A stretch of DNA of 64,000 nt from Cunninghamella blakesleeana (lineage: Eukaryota > Mucoromycota > Mucoromycetes > Mucorales > Cunninghamellaceae): contig JAFCIZ010000006.1 of assembly GCA_017871115.1 (NCBI GenBank), positions 4,626,558 to 4,690,557 on the forward strand, read 5' to 3'. The translations under genes and the position numbers were made by a program. This document shows positions 49,801 through 64,000 of the stretch, piece after piece; positions within the stretch are counted from its first letter, which is position 1; the number at the start of each line of letters is the position of its first letter. A model generated the notes under the pieces. That model was not told where the DNA came from. It searched no databases and saw only the letters and a list, made by a program, of their open reading frames with translations.

Positions 49801-50639
49801 AAATATTAATTATTAAAGATACTATTAGTATATCTGTATATCTCCGTTGCCTTTCTACAAAATATACTACGTTTATATAATTTTTTTTTTTTTTTTTTTT
49901 TTGGCATTTATTGGCGTTTTTGGAATTTTTTGTCAATTTTTGGTCATTAATTTTATTAGACGGTACAACAATCTAGATCCTCTCATTACTTATAATGGTT
50001 AAATCGGTGGTTACGTTGATCATATGGTAAGTTTTGCGTGAATTCTATTTTCCTTTTTTTTATTTTTATCTAAAAATTAAATATTTTTTTTTAAAAAAAT
50101 TAGTAATACTGTGATAAAGATAACAAATTAAAATAGAGTTTATCTATTTCCTAAAAAAAAAAAAAAAAAAATTATAACTATTTCCAAAAAAGAAAATAAA
50201 TGTTAAAAAAAAAAATGAAATTTATATTAATATTAAAAATAAAATCCTGGTATTCTATTATTTCCATTTTTAGATTCTATTACCATTTGTAGCAAAACCA
50301 ATCGATCACACAAGAAATATAACTTTTAATATTAATTTATACTCTATGGTTAAAATGAACTCTATGTATATTATTTTTTGTTAAATATGTGGAAACCGTG
50401 GAACATTTAATTTATAAAGATAACGATGACACCTTTTGTAAGTACGTTGACATAAGAAATTAAAATAATAATAATAACGAACTTTATATACAACACGAAA
50501 ACAAGGTGTCCTCTTTATTGTAATACAAACATTTGGAAATTCATATAAATACTCGAATGTCATTTTTTTGATTTCGTTTTTTTTTCTTTTTCTTTACTCT
50601 TTTATTATTTTAAAAAACAGTAATCCTAATTCAATAACA
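46814..50639. other. Gene-poor region, 3.8 kb
   Basis: Long AT-rich region without a convincing gene. It contains short homopolymers, an ATTA/TTAA tandem run near 48840-48855, TA microsatellite (48972-48990), A-tract clusters at 48465-48510 and 49495-49535, and a T-run/A-run palindrome at ~50082-50098. The frames at 47365-47547 and 50381-50563 have no coding character. No tRNA-like sequence was found. It could include lncRNA or decayed elements that I cannot recognise. Confidence 0.45.
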
Positions 50640-52406
50640 ATGAAATCTATTACCATCGCTACTTGTTTATTATACTCCTTTGTCTTTGCCAACGCTGCTG
50701 CCATTGCTAAAGGTCCTAAAGCTAGCAAGTCTCGCAACTATCTTATTCAATTGGATCCTAAAACTAACATTGATGATTTCATTCCTCAACTTTTGGAAGG
50801 TACTCTTGAATTAGTTGATAAAAATGAAGTATCTGCTCAAGGTAGCCCCGTTGCCGTTACAAAGAAATTTGATATCAATGATTCCTTCAAGGCTCTTAAG
50901 GTTAAAATCAATAATGATAGTATCTTGGCCAAGGTTTTAGCTCAATTCCCTGAAATTGCTACCATTATTCCTGATGATCCTATCAAATTCAATTTACCTA
51001 AACCTCAATCTATTAAGAAAGTTGACAAATTTTTGGTAAATATATAAATATACATTAATATATAATATACTTGTAATAAAATAAAATAATAGTAGTTATG
51101 TGATTTTTAATCTAATCCATCTCAATTTATAAATATATATTGAATAGCCTTTTGATATCATTTCTGCCCAAGGTTCCCAATCTGCTGCTCCATGGAATCT
51201 TGTTCGTGTTTCCCAACATACTCTTAACTTTAGCTCACCTTACTATTACCCTGACCATGCTGGGTAATTTTATTATTTTGAAATTAAAAATTATAATATA
51301 TATATATATATATATTTACGCGTACTTATCATTATTTTTTACATTTATTTTTATAAAATAGTGAAGGAGTAGTTGTTTATGTTATCGATGATGGTGTCAA
51401 CAAGGGTCATGTTGATTTCGGTGGCCGTGTTACTTGGGGTTATTCTACTATTAATGATGGTGATAATAATGGTGGTGGTCATGGTAATAATAAATAAAAA
51501 AATTCTAAATATACATGTATAAAAGAGAAAAAAAAAGAAAGAAAAAAAAATATGAATCGTCTATTTGTATAATAATTTAATTATTATTATTATTATTATT
51601 AAATGTGCATCAATAGGTACTCACGTTTCTGGTATTATTGCTGGTAACACTTATGGTGTCGCTAAAAAGGCCCAAATTATATCTGTCAGAGTCTTGGACA
51701 AGTCAGGATCTGGAAGTATGACTGATGTATTGGATGGTTTACAATGGGCTGTTCAACATTCCAAGACCACTGGTAAGAGATCTTTAGTAAACATGTCTCT
51801 TGGTGTAAGAAAGAGCTCTGGTCTTGCTTCTTTCGATGACGCCATTACTGCTGCTGTCAATGGTGGTTTACCTATTGTTGTTGCTGCTGGTAACTCTGCT
51901 GAGTAAGTATTTATTTTTTATTTATATACTTTTTTTTTTTTTTTAAAAAAATAAAAATAAAAAAGGAACAAATGGAAATAGTGATCTATGTACATATATT
52001 AATTTATTTTATTCTTTTATTTTAATTATTTTACTTTTCCAATAGTAACGCTTGTAACTACTTACCTGCCGGAAACCTTAGAGCCTATACTGTTGGTTCT
52101 ATTGATAATGCCGACAAATTATCCTCCTTCAGCAGTTACGGTACTTGTGTTGACATCAATGCTCCTGGTTCTAACATTAAGAGTGACTACATCGGTAGCA
52201 CCACTGCCACTACTATCATGTCTGGTACCAGTATGGCTTCTCCTCACGTTGCTGGTGTTGCCGCCTTACTCATTCACGATTTAGCTGATCCTACCCCCGA
52301 TAACTTATACAACAAGCTTACTTCCATTGCTACTAAGGATAAGATTACTAATAACAAATCTGGAAATCCTAACTTGATTGCTTACAATGGTGCTGGTACT
52401 GCTTAA
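50640..52406 (+). CDS. Secreted subtilisin-like serine protease (S8, proteinase K-like)
   Basis: Extracellular peptidase. Five exons (50640-51035, 51148-51263, 51362-51483, 51617-51902, 52046-52406) join in phase to 426 residues. A signal peptide (about 1-19, MKSITIATCLLYSFVFANA) precedes an inhibitor-I9-type propeptide (~28-125, 'NYLIQLDPKTNIDDF'). The catalytic triad is intact: Asp180 in 'VIDDGV', His214 in 'HGTHVSG', Ser369 in 'SGTSMASPHVAG', with the oxyanion Asn304 in 'VAAGNSAE'. Mature enzyme should begin near residue ~135. Cys residues in 'NACNYLP' and 'YGTCVDI' could pair as in proteinase K. The ATG chosen gives a textbook signal peptide; an in-frame ATG 24 codons upstream adds a T-run-derived stretch and is unlikely. 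Codons are C/T-rich relative to neighbours, fitting a highly expressed secreted enzyme. Confidence 0.96.
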
Positions 52407-54016: not shown

Positions 54017-55326
54017 TTATTAAATAAACTTATTTATAAAAAAATATTAATATATGGTTGGCGAATTATGATATTTTCATGAAATTTTTACTACTGATAC
54101 AATACTATAAAAAATCATTTAATTATATAATGATATTATGTAAAATAACGATCATTGTAAGCTGATATTACAATATTTTTCTCCAGTCTGCTAGGTGTTT
54201 TTAGCAAGAGAAGAGTGTAAGATTCATGTTTATATATATATGTATCTTAGGAAAATATAATATGTTAAATTCATTTTTTTATTATTTTATTAGTTTTTAT
54301 GACTTTTTCCACTAGTATTTAAAGTAAACTACTTGCTATTTTATGCTAATATTTATGATAGTTTTAATTGTGCTATTATTACATTTATTATTTTGAAGGT
54401 ATATAGATATAATTATTGGTATGAATAATTGACATAATTGGATATATTATAATGGAATAATGATAAGGCGATATTTACAGAGAGTATTAATAAAAAAATA
54501 ATTTTATTCTACTCAAGTCATTTATATATGCTTGGTTATCTTCGTTTCAATTATATTCACTTCTTTTTCTTTAATAATTTTTTATTTTAGTAGTTCTATC
54601 AAGTTAATTTGCCTTGTAATAAATAAATAAAATTAAAGCTATATTATTCTATTATATAATACGGTAGAATATTGAATTAAATTATATAATATTAATGATT
54701 TTTAAATCCACTTAGATCAAAATAAATATATATAATATTAAAATGAATATCTATACTACATATAATTTGTTATAATAAATATTTATAATGTATAGCTATT
54801 TAATAATTATAATGACAGCAATAAACACAGTAAAATTTAAATGACTTTGATGGATCAATATAATATATATATATAGGAAGTGAAGATTAATATTCATTAT
54901 AATTTTACGATAATACAATTATCTGATCTACCCATAGGTATAATTATATATTGTAGATGATTTATTTAAATAAGTATTTTATTTAATCTTTTAATAAAAG
55001 ATAAGCAACAGTTTCATAATACCAGTTTTATCTTAAGTTATATATATATTATTTTATTTTAAGTAAAGGTAACAATTATAACGAAAACTGGCAAGTTTTT
55101 TTATTTTTTATTTTTATTCATCTTTGTGATATGACATTAAATATTAAATAGACAAAAGAATATAAATACTATTTTAATATTATTTAATTCAGTGATTATA
55201 TTTTTATTTACATAAGTATATACATATATATATATAAAAATATATAAAAAACTATACAAACACAAAAAAAAAAAAATTGTATATAATATATATATAATTA
55301 TAAAAATTTAAAAACTATGTAAAAAA

Positions 55327-55425
55327 TTAAAGAATAAAGAGAATATAAAGAAATACAAAAAAAATTAAAGAATAAAGAGAATATAAAGAAATACAAAAAA
55401 AATTAAAGAATAAAAAGGATAAAAA
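55327..55425 (+). repeat. 38-bp tandem repeat, about 2.5 copies
   Basis: The unit 'attaaagaataaagagaata...' repeats at 55327, 55365 and 55403, exactly 38 bases apart. The first two copies are identical by eye and the third diverges after its first half. The identity suggests recent slippage or unequal exchange. Confidence 0.85.
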
Positions 55426-55559
55426 CATAAAAAAAATTAGAAGATTTTATAAGCTTTAATAGAAATATAATAAAACAAAAAAAAAAAAAAATAAAAACAA
55501 ATAGAAATACAAAAAAAACATAATAGTAATAATAAACTAATAATGAATACTGGAATAGA

Positions 55560-55920
55560 TAACAAATCAATATATAAAAATGACATAAGGTATAATAAAA
55601 TACGAAAAAAAAAAAAATATAAAAAAAATACAAGTTATGAAATATAAAATGCAATAAAAGAATAAAATAATAAAATAACATAATAGTAAATATATGTATA
55701 TATATAAGAAAAATTAGCAGAAAAGAAAATACGTAATAAAAAAATATAAAGAATAAAATTTATAATAAAGAGAAAGAAAAAAAAAAAAGAAAGGACAAAC
55801 ACAACAAAGCAAAATGGGGATAATAGAAATAAAAACAATAAAACCTCAGAACAAACAAGAAAGCAGAACAAAAAATAATAATAAAAAAAAAAAAAAACAG
55901 GAGCAGGGCCAAAAAACCAG
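55560..55920 (+). repeat. A-rich subtelomeric block, inner copy
   Basis: Begins with 'gcaataaaagaataaaata', then a TA-rich patch, then purine/A-rich DNA rich in 'aacaaac' and 'agcaaaat' pieces (55790-55900) with few T. The order of these segments matches the telomere-proximal block at 63590-63920. The two appear to be diverged copies of one subtelomeric element in the same orientation. Confidence 0.5.
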
Positions 55921-55984
55921 AGAACAAAATTAGATATCTAATTTTTACTTTTGGGTTAAGAGGTATTTTATTAATAAAAGTATC

Positions 55985-56330
55985 ATAAAAATCGTATCAT
56001 TGGAAAGCTCTTGGTCTATAGATTATAAATCTTTTTTTTTAAAAAAAGAGAGGAATATCACTAGTTTTTACAGGGTTAAGTGATGGAGTTTGACAAATCA
56101 TTTAATTTTTGGGAATATTGGCTAATATGCGCATATTCAGACCGGGTTTTTGTGCATTTCTAATTATAAAAAATAGTACTATTAGAAAGCTCTCAGTGTA
56201 GAGTACCTACTTCTTTTAAAAAATATGCTACTGACATTTCTACGTTTGAAAATATTGGTATTTGAAAATCCTCTATTTTTGGGATGTTTTTTTAGAGTAT
56301 TGGAGGTTATTCAGATACTCGTGATCGCAA
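55985..56330 (+). repeat. Tandem duplication of a ~182-bp unit, diverged
   Basis: Two units each carry, in the same order, a 'cgtatcattggaaagctc'-like core (56002 and 56184, 182 bases apart) and an 'atttttggga' segment (56107 and ~56275) with 'ttcaga' nearby. Base composition is less AT-biased than the surroundings, so this is likely part of a dispersed element and not random AT-rich DNA. Confidence 0.5.
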
Positions 56331-56679
56331 TGATTCGCTCGTAAAGGATAGGATAGAATATAAACCTTTTAGAATTACAATCTGGAAATCTGCAGATAAT
56401 TAACAACAGTGTACATGTACAATTGGATAAAGATTAACAGCAATTGACCATAAAATATTTATTTATTTGCAAATATAAAAACATAAGTAACAGTAGAGTT
56501 ATTAATGACAGGAATTAAAATAAAGAAAAAAAAAATACATATATAAATGATAGTAAAAGCATATAAAAAGAAAGTATATAAAAAAAGATATGTAAAAGAA
56601 AAATGAATAATAATAAAAATATAGAAACCATATTTGAAAAAATGCAATCATAATGTTAGAAAAAATAAATAAAAAAATA

Positions 56680-59600
56680 TCAATAATTACGAACCATTCG
56701 AACTATAATTCTGCCACCTTTATAGCGCCAAACTTTGTCTGAATTTATCGATGGGAGACAAAAATAGTTGCTATTTATATGATTGCATAAATTTTTATGA
56801 AATTCGAGAATTTCTTCCGAAAAAATACCACCAGCTTCAATGTAAGATTGCACTATAAGGTAATATGCCCTACGAGCGCCAATCCCAAAAAAGTAGTGTT
56901 TTCTGGTTAGTAGATCGGTAAAATCTAGACCACTTGATGGTTTTTTAAATACATGACTAGAAATTTGGGAAACAAATACATGTGGCACTACAAAAGTAGA
57001 TTCATATGTTTCACCCTATTAAAAATAATAATAACAATAATAACATTAGTTCAACTAGAAAAAATAGCAAATATTTTAGAGTCACTTACAAATAATGAAT
57101 CAAAAAGAGTCCTATCAGTAAAGACTCTTTCATCAAGTAATTTTATTTCACCGGTAAAATTACGATTTATATAGTCACGAGGAGGTCTGCCCCTCTTATT
57201 ATCAAAAATAACCCACGTTTCTTGAAAATAACACCTAAGTAAGGATTTAATAAATTCTATAGACAATCCGTGATTTCTCCAAGAATTTATAACCATATCA
57301 AAACTATTACCTGGAGTGGTAGGATCATATTTGAGGAGTGGTGGTAAATTGAATAATGACTTATTATTATTGATAGTTGAAGGAGCAGTTAAAGTGTTAT
57401 TGAAAGGTGGATTAAAGGGATTTGAAAGCAATGTTTCGAAACCTAAACCTTGTATACTAATTGGAGGTCTTGTATTACTTGGTATATAGTCATAGTTGAC
57501 AAAATTAAATGGCAGGTTTAGTAAAGATGATATAACATTGCGGTCCAAACAATCTTGTAATACAATACGATTTTCATCATCAAAAGTGAAAAGGTTAGGA
57601 TAAAATTGGATACCAGATGATCTTGATGTATAAGAATTTAAAAAAGAACCAACCTTTTTCCACTTTGAATAATCCAAAGGTCTAGAATTTAGTCCACACA
57701 TTAAATAACTAACAATCAAAAAAGTTGTATAATGTTGAGCATTATAAGGTTTTAATGATGTCTTTCGTAGAAATATATTTTGAGATACAAGATATAAAGA
57801 AGAAAAGCGGTGATGAAGATAAGCAGCCAATAAAGATGTCGGAACAGATTGAATATGCTGGACGCATGAACTAAAAATAACGAAAGCTGTCAGTAAATTT
57901 AATAATAAAATAATAATATATTAGTAAAAGAATTTACCTAGATTTTTGTATTAACTGCTCAAGGTTAATAGTGGAGTGGTTGACCCTAAATTCCATTCTT
58001 GCAGGATAGGTTTCACCCTGTAATTTTGCTGATTCCAAAGTATCAGTGACATAGTTCTAAAAAATAATTATTATTAATTAACATGAACAAAAAGTAATAC
58101 TAAATAAATAAAAATAACTATACCTTGTATGTATCGTACTCTGGGCTATTATTCATTAAAATTATTGGATCTATATCAGCCCCATAACGTAAGCTATTAT
58201 ATTTGCTTCGTTTATAAAATAGCGATTTTATATTATGATAGCACTGCATTTTCATAACACCTTCATCACCAAAAATATTATTGCCAGACCAATGACTAAA
58301 ACCTGCCACATTTGTAAAACCAGCAAACGCATCAAAACGATTGTATTTTACATAAAGGGATGATGGTAAAAATAGGGATATAATAGAACGGTGTTGAAGA
58401 GGAATATCTGGGTTAGTAATAGACCAAAGTAGAGTATTTCCTATTTGACCAAAACTAATGGAAATGTCATAATAAAAGTTGGAATCGTTTATCAAAGACC
58501 AATTTAGTTCGTTTTTAAAAAGTGGTTTAATGTCAACGACACTATTAATAGTGGACTTGAAGCCATTACCATTACAAACAAAAAAGAAGTCCTGAAAAAC
58601 ATATAACCCAGTGTTTTTATCATTGATTTTATTACGCAAGATATCAGTAAGACGTTCTGTTTCCTCTTGTTGTAAATAAAATTGATAACCAATGTTCAAC
58701 TTTCCGTCCTTCCCTTTTGAATGATAGCGTGCATTATTATAATTAGTTGGTATCTTGCTACGATTCATTATGGAACAAGATTCTCGTACAGATGGAAGTA
58801 AAAACTGTTCACGAAAGATCTTGATATGATCGTGTCCAATATAATAAGCATTTTTACCACCGTTATAAAGTCTAGGAAAATATATATATAACTGAAAAAA
58901 AAAAGAAAAAGAAAAAGAAAAAAAAAAAAACAAAAGAAAAAAAAGAAAAAGAAAAAGAAAAAAAAAACAAAAGAAAAAAAAGAAAAAAAATAGAAAAAAA
59001 AAAAAAAGAAAAAAAAATTAATAAAAGGTTATAATATTTAGTTTGAATATATATTTTTTAAGTACACTTACTGAACAACGAGATGCATAACCAAAACGAC
59101 CGAGTAATAAATTTGGGATATTCCCTATATCAATATTTTCATTATTAATTCGACGACCGATGCGTTGATATGATTTAATTCTAGAATTATAATCATAAGT
59201 AAAGGACATAGAAAGGTGACCAATAACTGGAATAGACTCAGATATAATAGTAACTGAGTCGATATCCATTTTAGAATGATGATCAACAATAGGATCAAAA
59301 CCAGGTTCAACTTTAAAAGTACCAGATTGACCAAAACCACCAGGTTGACCAAATCCACGACAAAGTCCATTAGATATATATGTAGCAGCATTATTACTGC
59401 TACTACCCATCAAGTCAACGTACTCGGAAAGTGATAATGTTTTTTCTATAAAACAGCAAAAAAAAAAAATATTAATTTACCTAAAAAAAAAAAAAAAAAG
59501 TAAAAAAGCTGAATAAAAAAATATAAATATTACCTTCAAAATGATGATCATATTGACTAACATGAGACTCTTCTGTATGTAATTCTAAAGAGTTGGTTAC

Positions 59601-60454
59601 ATTATCTTCATTGTTATTAATAGTATCTTTGGGGTCAAAATCAATATCAGTACTGGTAAAAGAGCATTCTGAATTAAGATCATCTGAAGAGTGGTCTGAT
59701 AATATGATATCAACTGCTTCTGAGATTTTTACCCTTTTATTATTACGATGAACTTGAGGATCATCAGTAGCACGACGGCGATATAGGCCAGCATATGGTG
59801 GAGAATTAGGAGAAACTGGGATAATATCAGCAGTAGAAACGTCAACAGGAAGATTAGAAGATGAAGGTTCAAAATATACCACTTTTTCTTTGCCCTTACC
59901 CTTATTCTTTTTACTGGCAATTAGAGGAGTTACCACTAATAATTAAACAATAGCATGTAAATTAGTGATAGAAAATAAAACAAATGTTGGTATAAAAAAT
60001 AAAACTTACTTGGTGGGGAAGGATTGGTAGGTGTTGTGGTTGTATTAATGAGGTTTTCTTTACGTTTAGTGTTTGGTGAAGAAAAAGATTTAGGAGGTGA
60101 TGATAGTTTAACTAAATAATACAAAATATAAACAATGGTTGATTAAAAATAAACAGTACAATGAATTGTTATTATATGTATATAGTTTTTTTTTTTTTTT
60201 TTATAAAGTTTACCTAAAGAAGGACTGACTGAACGAGAGTGAGAAATAACCAGTGGTGGTTCAGAGTTATCATCGTCCGAAAAATAGAAATAATACTCTG
60301 GAATTGGGTTTCCTAGGACATCAAACGAAGCAGGTATTAAAACGGAAGATGGGCTTGAAGGTTTTTTAGTAATAGAAGCAGATGGTTCAAGGGAAGATCT
60401 GGCAGAAACAACGTCAGCATATGATGGAGAAGGTGAGCGATTAAAAAAACACAT
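56680..60454 (-). CDS. Unassigned subtelomeric protein, 1,040 aa, eight exons
   Basis: I cannot place this protein in any family. Eight exons (60454-60214, 60111-60010, 59935-59534, 59445-59072, 58891-58124, 58056-57938, 57870-57090, 57015-56680) all end at GT-AG borders and sum exactly to 1,041 codons. There is no internal stop, so the gene is intact. Residues 1-~245 are Ser/Pro-rich, disordered, with acidic patches and a basic 'KRVKI' that could be nuclear-localising. Residues ~250-370 include a Gly-rich 'GFGQPGGFGQSG'. The remaining two thirds look folded and globular, e.g. 'LFLPSSLYVKYNRFDAFAGF', 'GETYPARMEFRVNHSTINLE', 'GARRAYYLIVQSYIEAGG'. No transmembrane helix, signal peptide, protease, polymerase or helicase motif is visible. 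Position between two repeat blocks near the telomere suggests a multicopy subtelomeric family. Confidence 0.8.
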
Positions 60455-62690
60455 ATTAAAAAGAATTATATAATAATAATAATAATAATAATAATAGCAA
60501 AAAAAAGGAAAATAAGATAAAATAAAATAAAAAGAAAAATAATTAAATAAAGATAAATATGTTAGGTTTGGTAAAGAAATAGAAATATAAAAATATATTA
60601 AAATAAAAGTTAAAACAAAAGAGATGTTGTGAAATTGTTGATTATCGTTTATTAGAAAATAAAATAAAATAGGTGTTTATATATGAATATATTTTAAGGG
60701 GAAATTATATAATAATCAGGGGTATGGTACTACCTAGTTGTTTCTGTTTGTGTGTGTTACTTAGAATATAGTATAGCATTATTATATTATTTAAATAAAT
60801 GGTATCTATAATAGATAATTATGATGTTGATATTATATTAATATTGGTTGATTAATATGTTTTAAAATGACAAATACAACAAAATAATTAAATAATTAAA
60901 AATAGATAATTCAACAAAAAATAGATGATGTTGAATTTGTCAAATTAAAATTATATAAAGTTAAGAAAAACAAAGAAGATATTGTGAAACTTTTGGTTAA
61001 GTTTTATTCAAATGTATAAAACAAGGGTTATATTTATACTTTTTAATAAATTAGTAACACCAGGCTTAGTTTATATATTGTATAGTATGAAAATAGAATT
61101 ATAGAGTAATCTAGTAAAGGTAACGCGAATTAGAATGGAGTTTAAAGTATGTCTATGGTTATGGATTTGTGGGATTAGAAGATTTAAAGTCATAAAATAG
61201 AATAAGCTAATAGAAATGGATCATTTCATATCAGGTACACAGTAGTGATTTTATAATAAATATCAACTATTTCATGCGGGTTATAAATGTATTATAATTA
61301 TGAAATCATTTAATATTGCTATTTTATGGTAAATATAACAGATAATTAAACAAAAATAAATAATAAAAATAAAGGATATTAATATCAATAATGAATAAAA
61401 AATAAAAAATAACAAATATATAAATAAAAAATAAATATTAAAATAGTAAAACAATGAATCAGTAAAATAAAAAAATAAAAATATTAAATTAATAAAATAA
61501 TAAAACAATAAATAAATAAAATAAATAATAATAATAATAATATTAAATTAATAAATCAATAAACCAGTAAACCAATAAATCAATAAAAAAATATATAAAA
61601 TATGAAATATAAAATGATAAAATTGTCGTATCAGGCTATTTTATCTTATAGTAAACAAATATAATACTATGATTATATAATAGTAAATAGTATAAAATAA
61701 AATAATGATAGTGATCATCAAATCCACTGAAATTAAAATATATAATCTTTTATTTAAATGAATAGCTATACTAAATAAAGAGTTAAATCTAATTCAGGTA
61801 TATTATTATTTTTAAACTGTCAAATTTAACTTTATAAACTTAATGTTAAAAGTCCCTATATTGAATCTAACTATATTACTACATTAATATATATAAGAAC
61901 CAATGACAGTTATCATGGATCATCATATAGTAATAATAAAATATATGAAAGGTTGTCATAATGGGATTATGAATTATATTGATTAATATTACTAATCATA
62001 TGAAAAGTAAAATATTATTCTATATAAATACTAAAGCAGAATTAGATTATTATTACAATCTTTATCTTATATTTATAATAAAAAACAACCAATCAAGGAA
62101 TTTCACTTAATTGTTTTATTTTCTATATTTATATATATTATATTATTTATTTTATCTATTTTAATTCTTACTATTTTTCAAAAATATAAGATATAAAATA
62201 TAAAATATAAAATATAATATATAAAAATATAAAATAATAAAGGGTAGATACCAATATAGGACACAGAATCATACAATCATGTGATTCTCTGATTTAATTT
62301 AATCTTTTTTATCTTTTCTGTAATATTTATATTTTCTTCATCAAAAAGTTTTCTTTTTACATTTTTATCTTTATTGTAAGCCTTAAATTGATATACTTTT
62401 TAAATTTTTTTATTCGATCTAGCTTTTTTTCATGTAAATTTCCAGTTCTCCATTTTTTTGTTTAATTTTATATTCTTCTATATTATATTTTTTTCATATC
62501 TTTAATAAAAATAGTTTTTTTAATATTATACTTAAATTTTTCATTTACAATAATATTGAAAACATCCATAATATAGCAAGATTTTTATTTATAATATTTT
62601 TTCAGTTTTTATTTCATATATCTAACCTCATTCATATTACTATATCCAATTCTTTTAGGTATATAATAAAATGATTATATATTAGGCAAG
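60455..62690. other. Gene-free subtelomeric DNA, 2.2 kb
   Basis: Extremely AT-rich spacer between the large orphan gene and the transposase fragment. Contains TAA triplets (60474-60494), AAATA-type runs at 61350-61620 resembling the A-rich blocks, and an interrupted inverted repeat around 62265-62292 ('agaatca' ... 'tgattct'). No coding frame. Confidence 0.45.
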
Positions 62691-63047
62691 TTAGTTTATT
62701 GGCATATATAGATGGATTTTCAAAATGAAATGAATTTTAAAAATAGTTTTTAATAAATATGTCATTGTTTTATTTTTACATTTTATATTTTTCAATTTTT
62801 CAATTAATTTTTTTAAAAAAAAAAGTTCCATAAATCTTTTTCTCCACTGATACTCTCTTAAATATAACATTATATTTTTTTTATTTCTATTTCTAGGTAA
62901 TATACTTTGTTTTAGTCGATTCCATGCACCTTCTATTGTATTTGTATGTACTTTTGATTTTGGATGTTTAAAATATTTATTGTGATTAACGGCTTTATGT
63001 TTATATCCTATTTTATGAAGGAATATATGAAGATCAGTTTGTGAATT
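62691..63047 (-). pseudogene. ISXO2/IS1595-like DDE transposase fragment
   Basis: An open stretch of 119 codons without a proper start. From its upstream end it reads 'LHIFLHKIGYKHKAVNHN', then 'VHTNTIEGAWNRLKQSILPR', then 'MLYLREYQWRKRFM'. These match the C-terminal catalytic half of ISXO2-like transposases (Tyr-Lys-His...Val-Asn-His, then His-Thr-Asn-x-Ile-Glu with the third catalytic acid, then the 'YL.E..WR' helix). The first two catalytic acids and the N-terminal half are missing, cut off by a TAA and a 16-base A/T run at about 63067-63083. The reading past 'KRFM' is homopolymer-rich. I conclude it is a truncated, inactive copy. Such elements are known in microsporidia and Mucoromycota. 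It lies 0.9 kb from the telomeric array. Confidence 0.82.
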
Positions 63048-63479
63048 TTAAATTTTTTGAAATGGACAAAAAAAAAAAAAAAATGGAAGAGTATAAAATA
63101 AATAGCATTAATATTAATTTTGATGAAAATAATAATAATTTAAATTTTAAATAAATAATAATAAAAGTTATTATGTTGATTATAAAATAAAAAAGAAGAT
63201 TAAGAAATGAAGATAAATCTAATTCTAATACTAAAAAAAATTAAATGATAATAAGTTTATAATAAGTAAAAAAATAGATATAATTAGTATTAATGATAAT
63301 ATTAACACTTCTAAACATAATTTTAATTATAAAATGAGATCTATTACTCAAAATATAAGATTTTCTAATAAAATTAAAAGTAATAATCAAGTAGATAAAT
63401 GTATAATTAAAGAAAAATAAAAAATAAAAATAAATAATTAAATACAGATGAAAATACGATTGTAAATAAAAATGCAGAT

Positions 63480-63735
63480 TTTAATGATAATTATAAAAAA
63501 AAAAAAAAAAAAAAATAAAAGAAAAAAATATAAATTATAATTTATAAAATGTAAAAATAATAAATAATCAAGATAAAATAAAATATAAAAATCAATAAAA
63601 GAATAAAATAACATAACAATAAAATAACGTAATAATATATATATATATATATATATATAAAAGGAAGATTAACAAAAAAGGAAACAAATAATAAGGAAAT
63701 TTAAAGAATAAAGATTATAATAATATATATATATA

Positions 63736-63779
<44 letters not shown>

Positions 63780-63920
63780 CAAAATAAACAGATTATAATA
63801 ACACAAGCAATAAAGCGGAACAAAATGAAACGAGAACATAGATACAAAACCAGGACAAAACAAAACAACCAAGATCAACATCAGACAAAAATAACGACAA
63901 AACAAGTCAAACTAAAGAAT
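63480..63920 (+). repeat. A-rich subtelomeric block, telomere-proximal copy
   Basis: Carries 'caataaaagaataaaataac', a TA run (63637-63659), 'aaagaataaagattataataa', then an A-run of about 40 bases (63739-63778) and a final 140-base A/C-rich stretch ('aacaaaatgaaacgag', 'aaacaaaacaacc') ending at the telomere. Segment order matches 55560-55920. Length of the A-run may be unreliable in the assembly. Confidence 0.5.
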
Positions 63921-63923
63921 AGG

Positions 63924-64000
63924 TTAGGGTTAGGGTTAGGGTTAGGGTTAGGGTTAGGGTTAGGGTTAGGGTTAGGGTTAGGGTTAGGGTTAGGGTTAGG
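63924..64000 (+). repeat. Telomere, TTAGGG array at chromosome end
   Basis: Twelve perfect TTAGGG units plus TTAGG run to the last base of the window. The G-rich strand points 5'->3' outward, as expected of a right-hand chromosome end. No variant units are present. The array is short because the assembly stops there. Confidence 0.98.

Follow-up and report, generated by a model that had tools for sequence, protein, structure and literature searches.

An eight-exon gene for a 1,040-residue protein, lying close to a chromosome end of Cunninghamella blakesleeana, is judged from its sequence to be real and intact. On balance we regard it as probably a host-adapted, lineage-restricted protein-coding gene of a very small family, the product of which has a probably disordered N-terminal quarter and a more hydrophobic, probably folded remainder. 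In this light it appears to be an ordinary lineage-restricted gene and not a system of a new kind. The stretch analysed, referred to here as the window, is 64,000 nucleotides long and terminates at the right end of contig C6 in a 12-contig, AT-rich genome of 31.9 Mb.

Gene model and predicted product

The eight exons run along the minus strand from 60454 to 56680 and join to 3,123 nt, consisting of 1,040 codons that begin with the ATG start and one terminal stop. Exon 1 (60214-60454, residues 1-80) carries the ATG and is S/P-rich and probably disordered. It is followed by exon 2 (60010-60111, residues 81-114), exon 3 (59534-59935, residues 115-248), which falls within the S/P/T-rich, hydrophobic-poor N-terminal region, and exon 4 (59072-59445, residues 249-373). 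The more hydrophobic part begins with exon 5 (58124-58891, residues 374-629), the core of which shows the highest conservation between the two end copies described below, and continues through exon 6 (57938-58056, residues 630-668), exon 7 (57090-57870, residues 669-929) and exon 8 with the stop codon (56680-57015, residues 930-1040). All eight exons were placed by exon joining. All seven introns are of the GT-AG type, with lengths of 67-180 nt, and the chain joins without an internal stop, in agreement with the initial annotation, which had described an intact 1,040-residue gene with its eight exons in phase. Within the gene stretch, stop-free runs reach 299 codons at most, compared to a maximum of 187 in 300 first-order Markov sequences generated from the same stretch, and frames of such length would not be expected by chance.

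Serine, proline and threonine make up 34% of the first 248 residues and hydrophobic residues 26%, while the remainder is 31-41% hydrophobic. Because an S/P/T-rich, hydrophobic-poor start is thus set against a more hydrophobic rest, the N-terminal quarter is probably disordered and the remainder probably folded. A structure prediction and fold search had been proposed for residues ~370-1040; predictions were obtained for exons 5 and 7, and the resulting AlphaFold2 models were both unusable (mean pLDDT 31.7 for exon 5 alone and 37.6 for exon 7 with three rows). The S/P-rich N-terminus together with short basic patches, taken from composition and reading by eye, faintly hints at a nuclear or chromatin-associated protein, which we offer as a guess. 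The codon usage of the gene correlates with that of nine pooled host-type open reading frames (ORFs) at 0.885. Single host-type ORFs reach 0.64-0.92, values inflated by the inclusion of each in its own comparison pool, which does not affect the value for the gene, and six mobile-element ORFs reach 0.33-0.84, the upper value belonging to one retroelement ORF. Since the host-type range is wide and a retroelement ORF attains 0.84, we treat codon usage as supporting evidence only, and weak.

Profile searches assigned the protein to no family. At full length it had no match in Pfam at E ≤ 10 and none in PHROGs at E ≤ 1; exons 4, 5, 7 and 8 and the outside relative P0001 likewise had none in Pfam at E ≤ 10, nor did exons 5, 7 and 8 and P0001 in NCBIfam at E ≤ 10. 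The statement in the initial annotation that the C-terminal two thirds match no known family therefore stood up to the searches of Pfam, NCBIfam and PHROGs, a sensitive profile search having been named as the test against it. No match to exon 5 was present among PDB sequences. For the middle of exon 7, a PDB entry labelled 'IMP-specific 5'-nucleotidase, putative' (E 0.037; 0.043-0.052) and two nanobodies (0.46 and 1.7) were treated as chance hits. A literature search yielded no match to the gene family in the parts of the sources that were accessible.

P0001, a 986-bp Logan contig, was the one relative returned from a collection of 5.8 billion proteins queried with residues 370-1040, exon 7 and exon 5, a count that depends on the collection's coverage of annotated fungal proteins, for which no control protein was run; the orphan status of the gene is accordingly provisional. 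P0001 holds an open frame for exon 7, the only exon with an outside relative found, which shares 83% identity with the window copy and enters intron 7 at the same place, terminating in residues that the start of that intron would encode. It differs in comprising the exon 7 piece only, and it is distinct from the copy on contig C5. Exon 7 is open in all three homologues, and their alignment has 265 columns, 257 of them gap-free and 197 of these 257 identical throughout. At the gap-free positions 21 residues are unique to the window copy, 18 to the C5 copy and 18 to P0001, with 3 positions differing in all, so the three sequences are about equally distant from each other. Further afield, exons 5 and 7 gave 2 and 1 pattern-matched stretches, respectively, in 2.9 million viral contigs, and the exon-7 alignment gave 26 pattern matches in prokaryote genomes; none was confirmed in either search, the reach of both being close relatives.

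Chromosome-end setting and copies in the genome

The start codon lies ~3.5 kb from the window end, where terminal TTAGGG repeats occupy 63922-64000 on the plus strand, and the proposed subtelomeric location is thereby borne out. The gene was also correctly placed between two related repeat blocks, as 55477-55934 resembles 63410-63885 in the terminal stretch at 68% identity. The former block is part of an AT-rich stretch (54900-56060, no strand assigned) containing repeats common to several chromosome ends and to interior places. Three further repeats, also without assigned strand, occupy the other side: a dispersed ~320-bp repeat directly upstream of the gene (60560-60882), a dispersed ~400-bp repeat (60943-61340), and a 557-bp repeat (61624-62180) that is probably a solo LTR from a retrotransposon; several of its copies at other places form pairs ~5.7 kb apart. 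Between 62.18 and 63.10 kb lies a block that shares 93% identity with the left end of contig C12 and contains the remnant of an ISXO2-like (DDE_Tnp_IS1595) transposase (62691-63047, minus strand). Elsewhere in the window, an ORF at 50478-51047 on the plus strand has, by eye, the look of a secreted subtilase's signal peptide and propeptide. Scanning the window for Rfam families and tRNA genes gave no match.

The initial annotation had called for a search of this genome for copies and their positions relative to chromosome ends. Searching the 31.9 Mb exon by exon identified three loci, two near chromosome ends and one internal: the intact gene in the window, a broken copy at the right end of contig C5, and a fragment in the interior of C5. 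Counting the window gene itself, there were four matches for exon 5, two for exon 7, two for exon 4, three for exon 8 and six for the N-terminal 280 residues, all within these three loci; the search scores the best candidates only, and distant copies could escape it. Copies are therefore present at two of at least 12 chromosome ends with telomere repeats and the third is internal, a distribution that lends no support to the telomere function once suggested for the gene.

The C5-end copy lies ~8 kb from the right end of its contig. Window bases 58742-60016 have no counterpart in it, exon 1 contains a stop and exon 8 a frameshift, and the similarity stops near residue 36. The sequence beyond that point looks by eye like a retroelement integrase, a likeness that Pfam did not confirm, and a Ty3 element as the cause of the break was dropped for this reason. 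We also dropped the notion that the C5 end resumes its homology with sequence upstream of the gene (at L007), the match being another copy of a dispersed repeat. The right end of C5 also contains an open frame of 282 aa (L005:8532-9380, minus strand) with motifs like those of a geminivirus-type Rep catalytic domain. Its match to Pfam Gemini_AL1 reaches E 0.0076 and 16.7 bits against a cut-off of 24, and its last residues fall within the ~400-bp dispersed repeat.

The internal fragment, near 2.647 Mb of C5 (L006:4266-4790), covers residues 290-449 only, at 46-78% identity depending on the segment. A 756-aa ORF lies on one side of it and two ORFs resembling ribosomal proteins S8 and L11 by eye lie on the other, and the idea that ribosomal genes flank the fragment on both sides was abandoned. 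Intron 4 is shorter here, at roughly 50-65 nt compared to 180 nt in the window, and since the intron was kept, copying probably took place at the DNA level without an RNA intermediate.

These copies also bear on the splicing of the eight-exon chain, which would proceed as modelled. Splice sites for introns 5, 6 and 7 also occur in the C5-end copy, where the intron 1 sites are legible too, though the region is misaligned. Intron 4 has its counterpart in the diverged internal fragment only, and introns 2 and 3 have none in the other copies.

The question of mobile-element descent

The alternative that survives best, which we nevertheless consider unlikely, is that the gene is part of a DNA transposon or derived from one, coding for its transposase or an accessory protein, and that a single degenerate inverted-repeat end remains. 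This possibility arises from 56302-56439 (plus strand), 0.24-0.38 kb past the stop codon, where the outer ~140 bp of a Tc1/mariner-type inverted repeat are present in degenerate form, 72-73% identical over the long match. This segment resembles the outer inverted-repeat ends of several elements in the genome, one of them 2 kb long and equipped with a Tc1/mariner-type transposase (L034). The match begins at or near the outer edge of the repeat and runs inward to the gene, an orientation that fits an enclosing element; the C5-end copy likewise bears an inverted-repeat remnant, and the third gene fragment elsewhere in C5 would also suit a mobile origin.

Several observations argue against such descent. 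On the minus strand between 54.0 and 64.0 kb no convincing right-hand inverted partner was detected, the best matches listed being of low complexity, though such a partner could be lost or too decayed. A transposon would be expected to leave many dispersed copies, whereas three loci were found in the 31.9 Mb, within the reach of the search noted above, and the gene has seven introns. Two transposases measured for comparison lie further from the host ORFs in codon usage than the gene does. Pfam detects no DDE transposase family in the protein; the Tc1/mariner (DDE_3) transposons of this genome, whose outer inverted repeat resembles 56302-56439, encode a protein with DDE_3 and HTH_Tnp_Tc3_2 and have no family in common with the gene. 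The match would be accounted for equally well if a short non-autonomous element had inserted next to the gene prior to its duplication.

The protein also lacks similarity to a 559-aa ORF (L032:4464-6140) carried by an element with similar ends. That element (L032:1234-6140 and L031) has terminal inverted repeats, a DDE_Tnp_4 transposase and a chromodomain ORF in addition to the 559-aa ORF; a short palindromic element is nested within its inverted repeats, and the element as a whole also harbours other transposases. The 559-aa ORF was detected in two copies genome-wide, and it has two weak, unrelated Pfam matches, weak PDB matches only, and a likeness to Rep seen by eye. Kinship between the gene and this ORF had been considered because of a loosely shared order of motifs, again by eye. 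BLASTP gave E 0.83; in local alignment under three matrices, 241, 312 and 266 of 500 shuffles scored as high as the real pair or higher; and the hhalign probability was 0.1, upon which the Rep-like hypothesis was rejected.

Constraint between the end copies and origin of the gene

A comparison of dN and dS among copies, also called for initially, was made between the window gene and the C5-end copy. Over exons 5-8 it gave dN 0.072, dS 0.273 and a dN/dS of 0.266 (NG86), from 608 aligned codons after gapped and stop codons were dropped, starting at 58722 as the C5 copy has no start of exon 5. Selection was measured on exons 5-8 only, exon 3 and most of exon 4 being without a good comparison partner. 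Three other methods gave 0.28-0.36, and the bootstrap range was 0.20-0.36 with 0 of 300 resamples at or above 1. By part, the ratio is 0.20 for exons 5-6 and 0.24 for exon 7. The two parts of exon 8 have ratios of 0.48 and 0.40 with ranges that include 1; because 25 and 11 of 300 resamples, respectively, reach or exceed 1, exon 8 alone is compatible with neutrality. Differences at codon positions 1, 2 and 3 number 54, 43 and 90, and there are two indels in 1,832 exon bases compared to three in 208 intron bases and eight in 638 flank bases.

Measured against the introns, the constraint is mild, since 20 of 205 aligned bases differ in introns 5-7 (9.8%), which is below dS, and the raw identities of exons and introns are similar. 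The 3' flank, at 79.6% identity over 555 aligned bases, agrees more closely with dS than the introns do. In the exon 5 core (58300-58722) the end copies are more alike than elsewhere (dN 0.012, dS 0.14, NG86) and the adjoining intron 5 has 95.5% identity; the likeness of the core could stem from gene conversion or from uneven constraint. Taken together, the comparison supports past purifying selection on exons 5-8, weakened by the intron divergence below dS, and we read the constraint as real, not extreme, and as acting on both end copies for much of the time since they separated. The initial claim that selection has kept the gene intact is supported by the ratio of 0.27 and the scarcity of exon indels, with the same reservation about the introns. 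The suggestion of a fast-evolving multicopy family was not supported, given that ratio and three loci found in the genome, two of them broken.

That the gene is instead a neutral relic or an artefact of exon joining, intact by chance, is improbable. The introns diverging less than dS and an exon chain known from sequence alone would suit this explanation; the open-frame lengths, the bias among codon positions and the density of indels all disagree with it. So does a neutral simulation that assumed an AT bias and was run at 5, 10 and 13.5% divergence, in which the coding sequence acquired on average 7.2, 13.8 and 17.9 stops and a stop-free outcome appeared in 0 of 300 runs at each setting. We hold it equally improbable that the gene represents a new family of subtelomere-resident selfish DNA with an undescribed fold, kept intact by its own spread and not by benefit to the host, which would have travelled from one chromosome end to another on a segment formerly bounded by Tc1/mariner-like ends. 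Drive by a subtelomeric selfish gene, either a spore killer or a meiotic driver, could likewise keep a single copy intact, and the position at a chromosome end, the one intact copy among three and the absence of a known family fit such a gene. Drivers usually evolve fast, however, and dN/dS is low here; no feature seen in the searches described above points to any known driver, and we rate this reading as very unlikely. Least probable of all is an endogenised viral gene for a capsid or replication protein, for which the missing cellular family match and the separate Rep-like remnant at the C5 end could be cited, against seven introns, no PHROGs match, and no confirmed relative of exons 5 and 7 among the viral contigs at the close range covered there.

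Returning to the lineage-restricted host gene that we prefer, the two end copies would have arisen by duplication between chromosome ends that share repeats, and the repeats common to these ends offer a plain route for such an event. Selection at the protein level may then have acted on both copies over much of the period after the duplication, with the C5 copy presumably losing its function rather recently. The gene by itself overturns nothing. It does offer a clear instance in which a long, multi-exon gene of no recognised family stays open beside a chromosome end while two relatives have decayed. Should more relatives be found, it would become a dated example of the birth, end-to-end duplication and loss of a lineage-restricted gene, possibly with a new fold.

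Duplicated gene families of subtelomeres are typically large. The gene described here resembles them in lying near a chromosome end, in its apparent duplication from end to end and in the decay of its copies, and differs from them in that three loci were found, one of which is internal.
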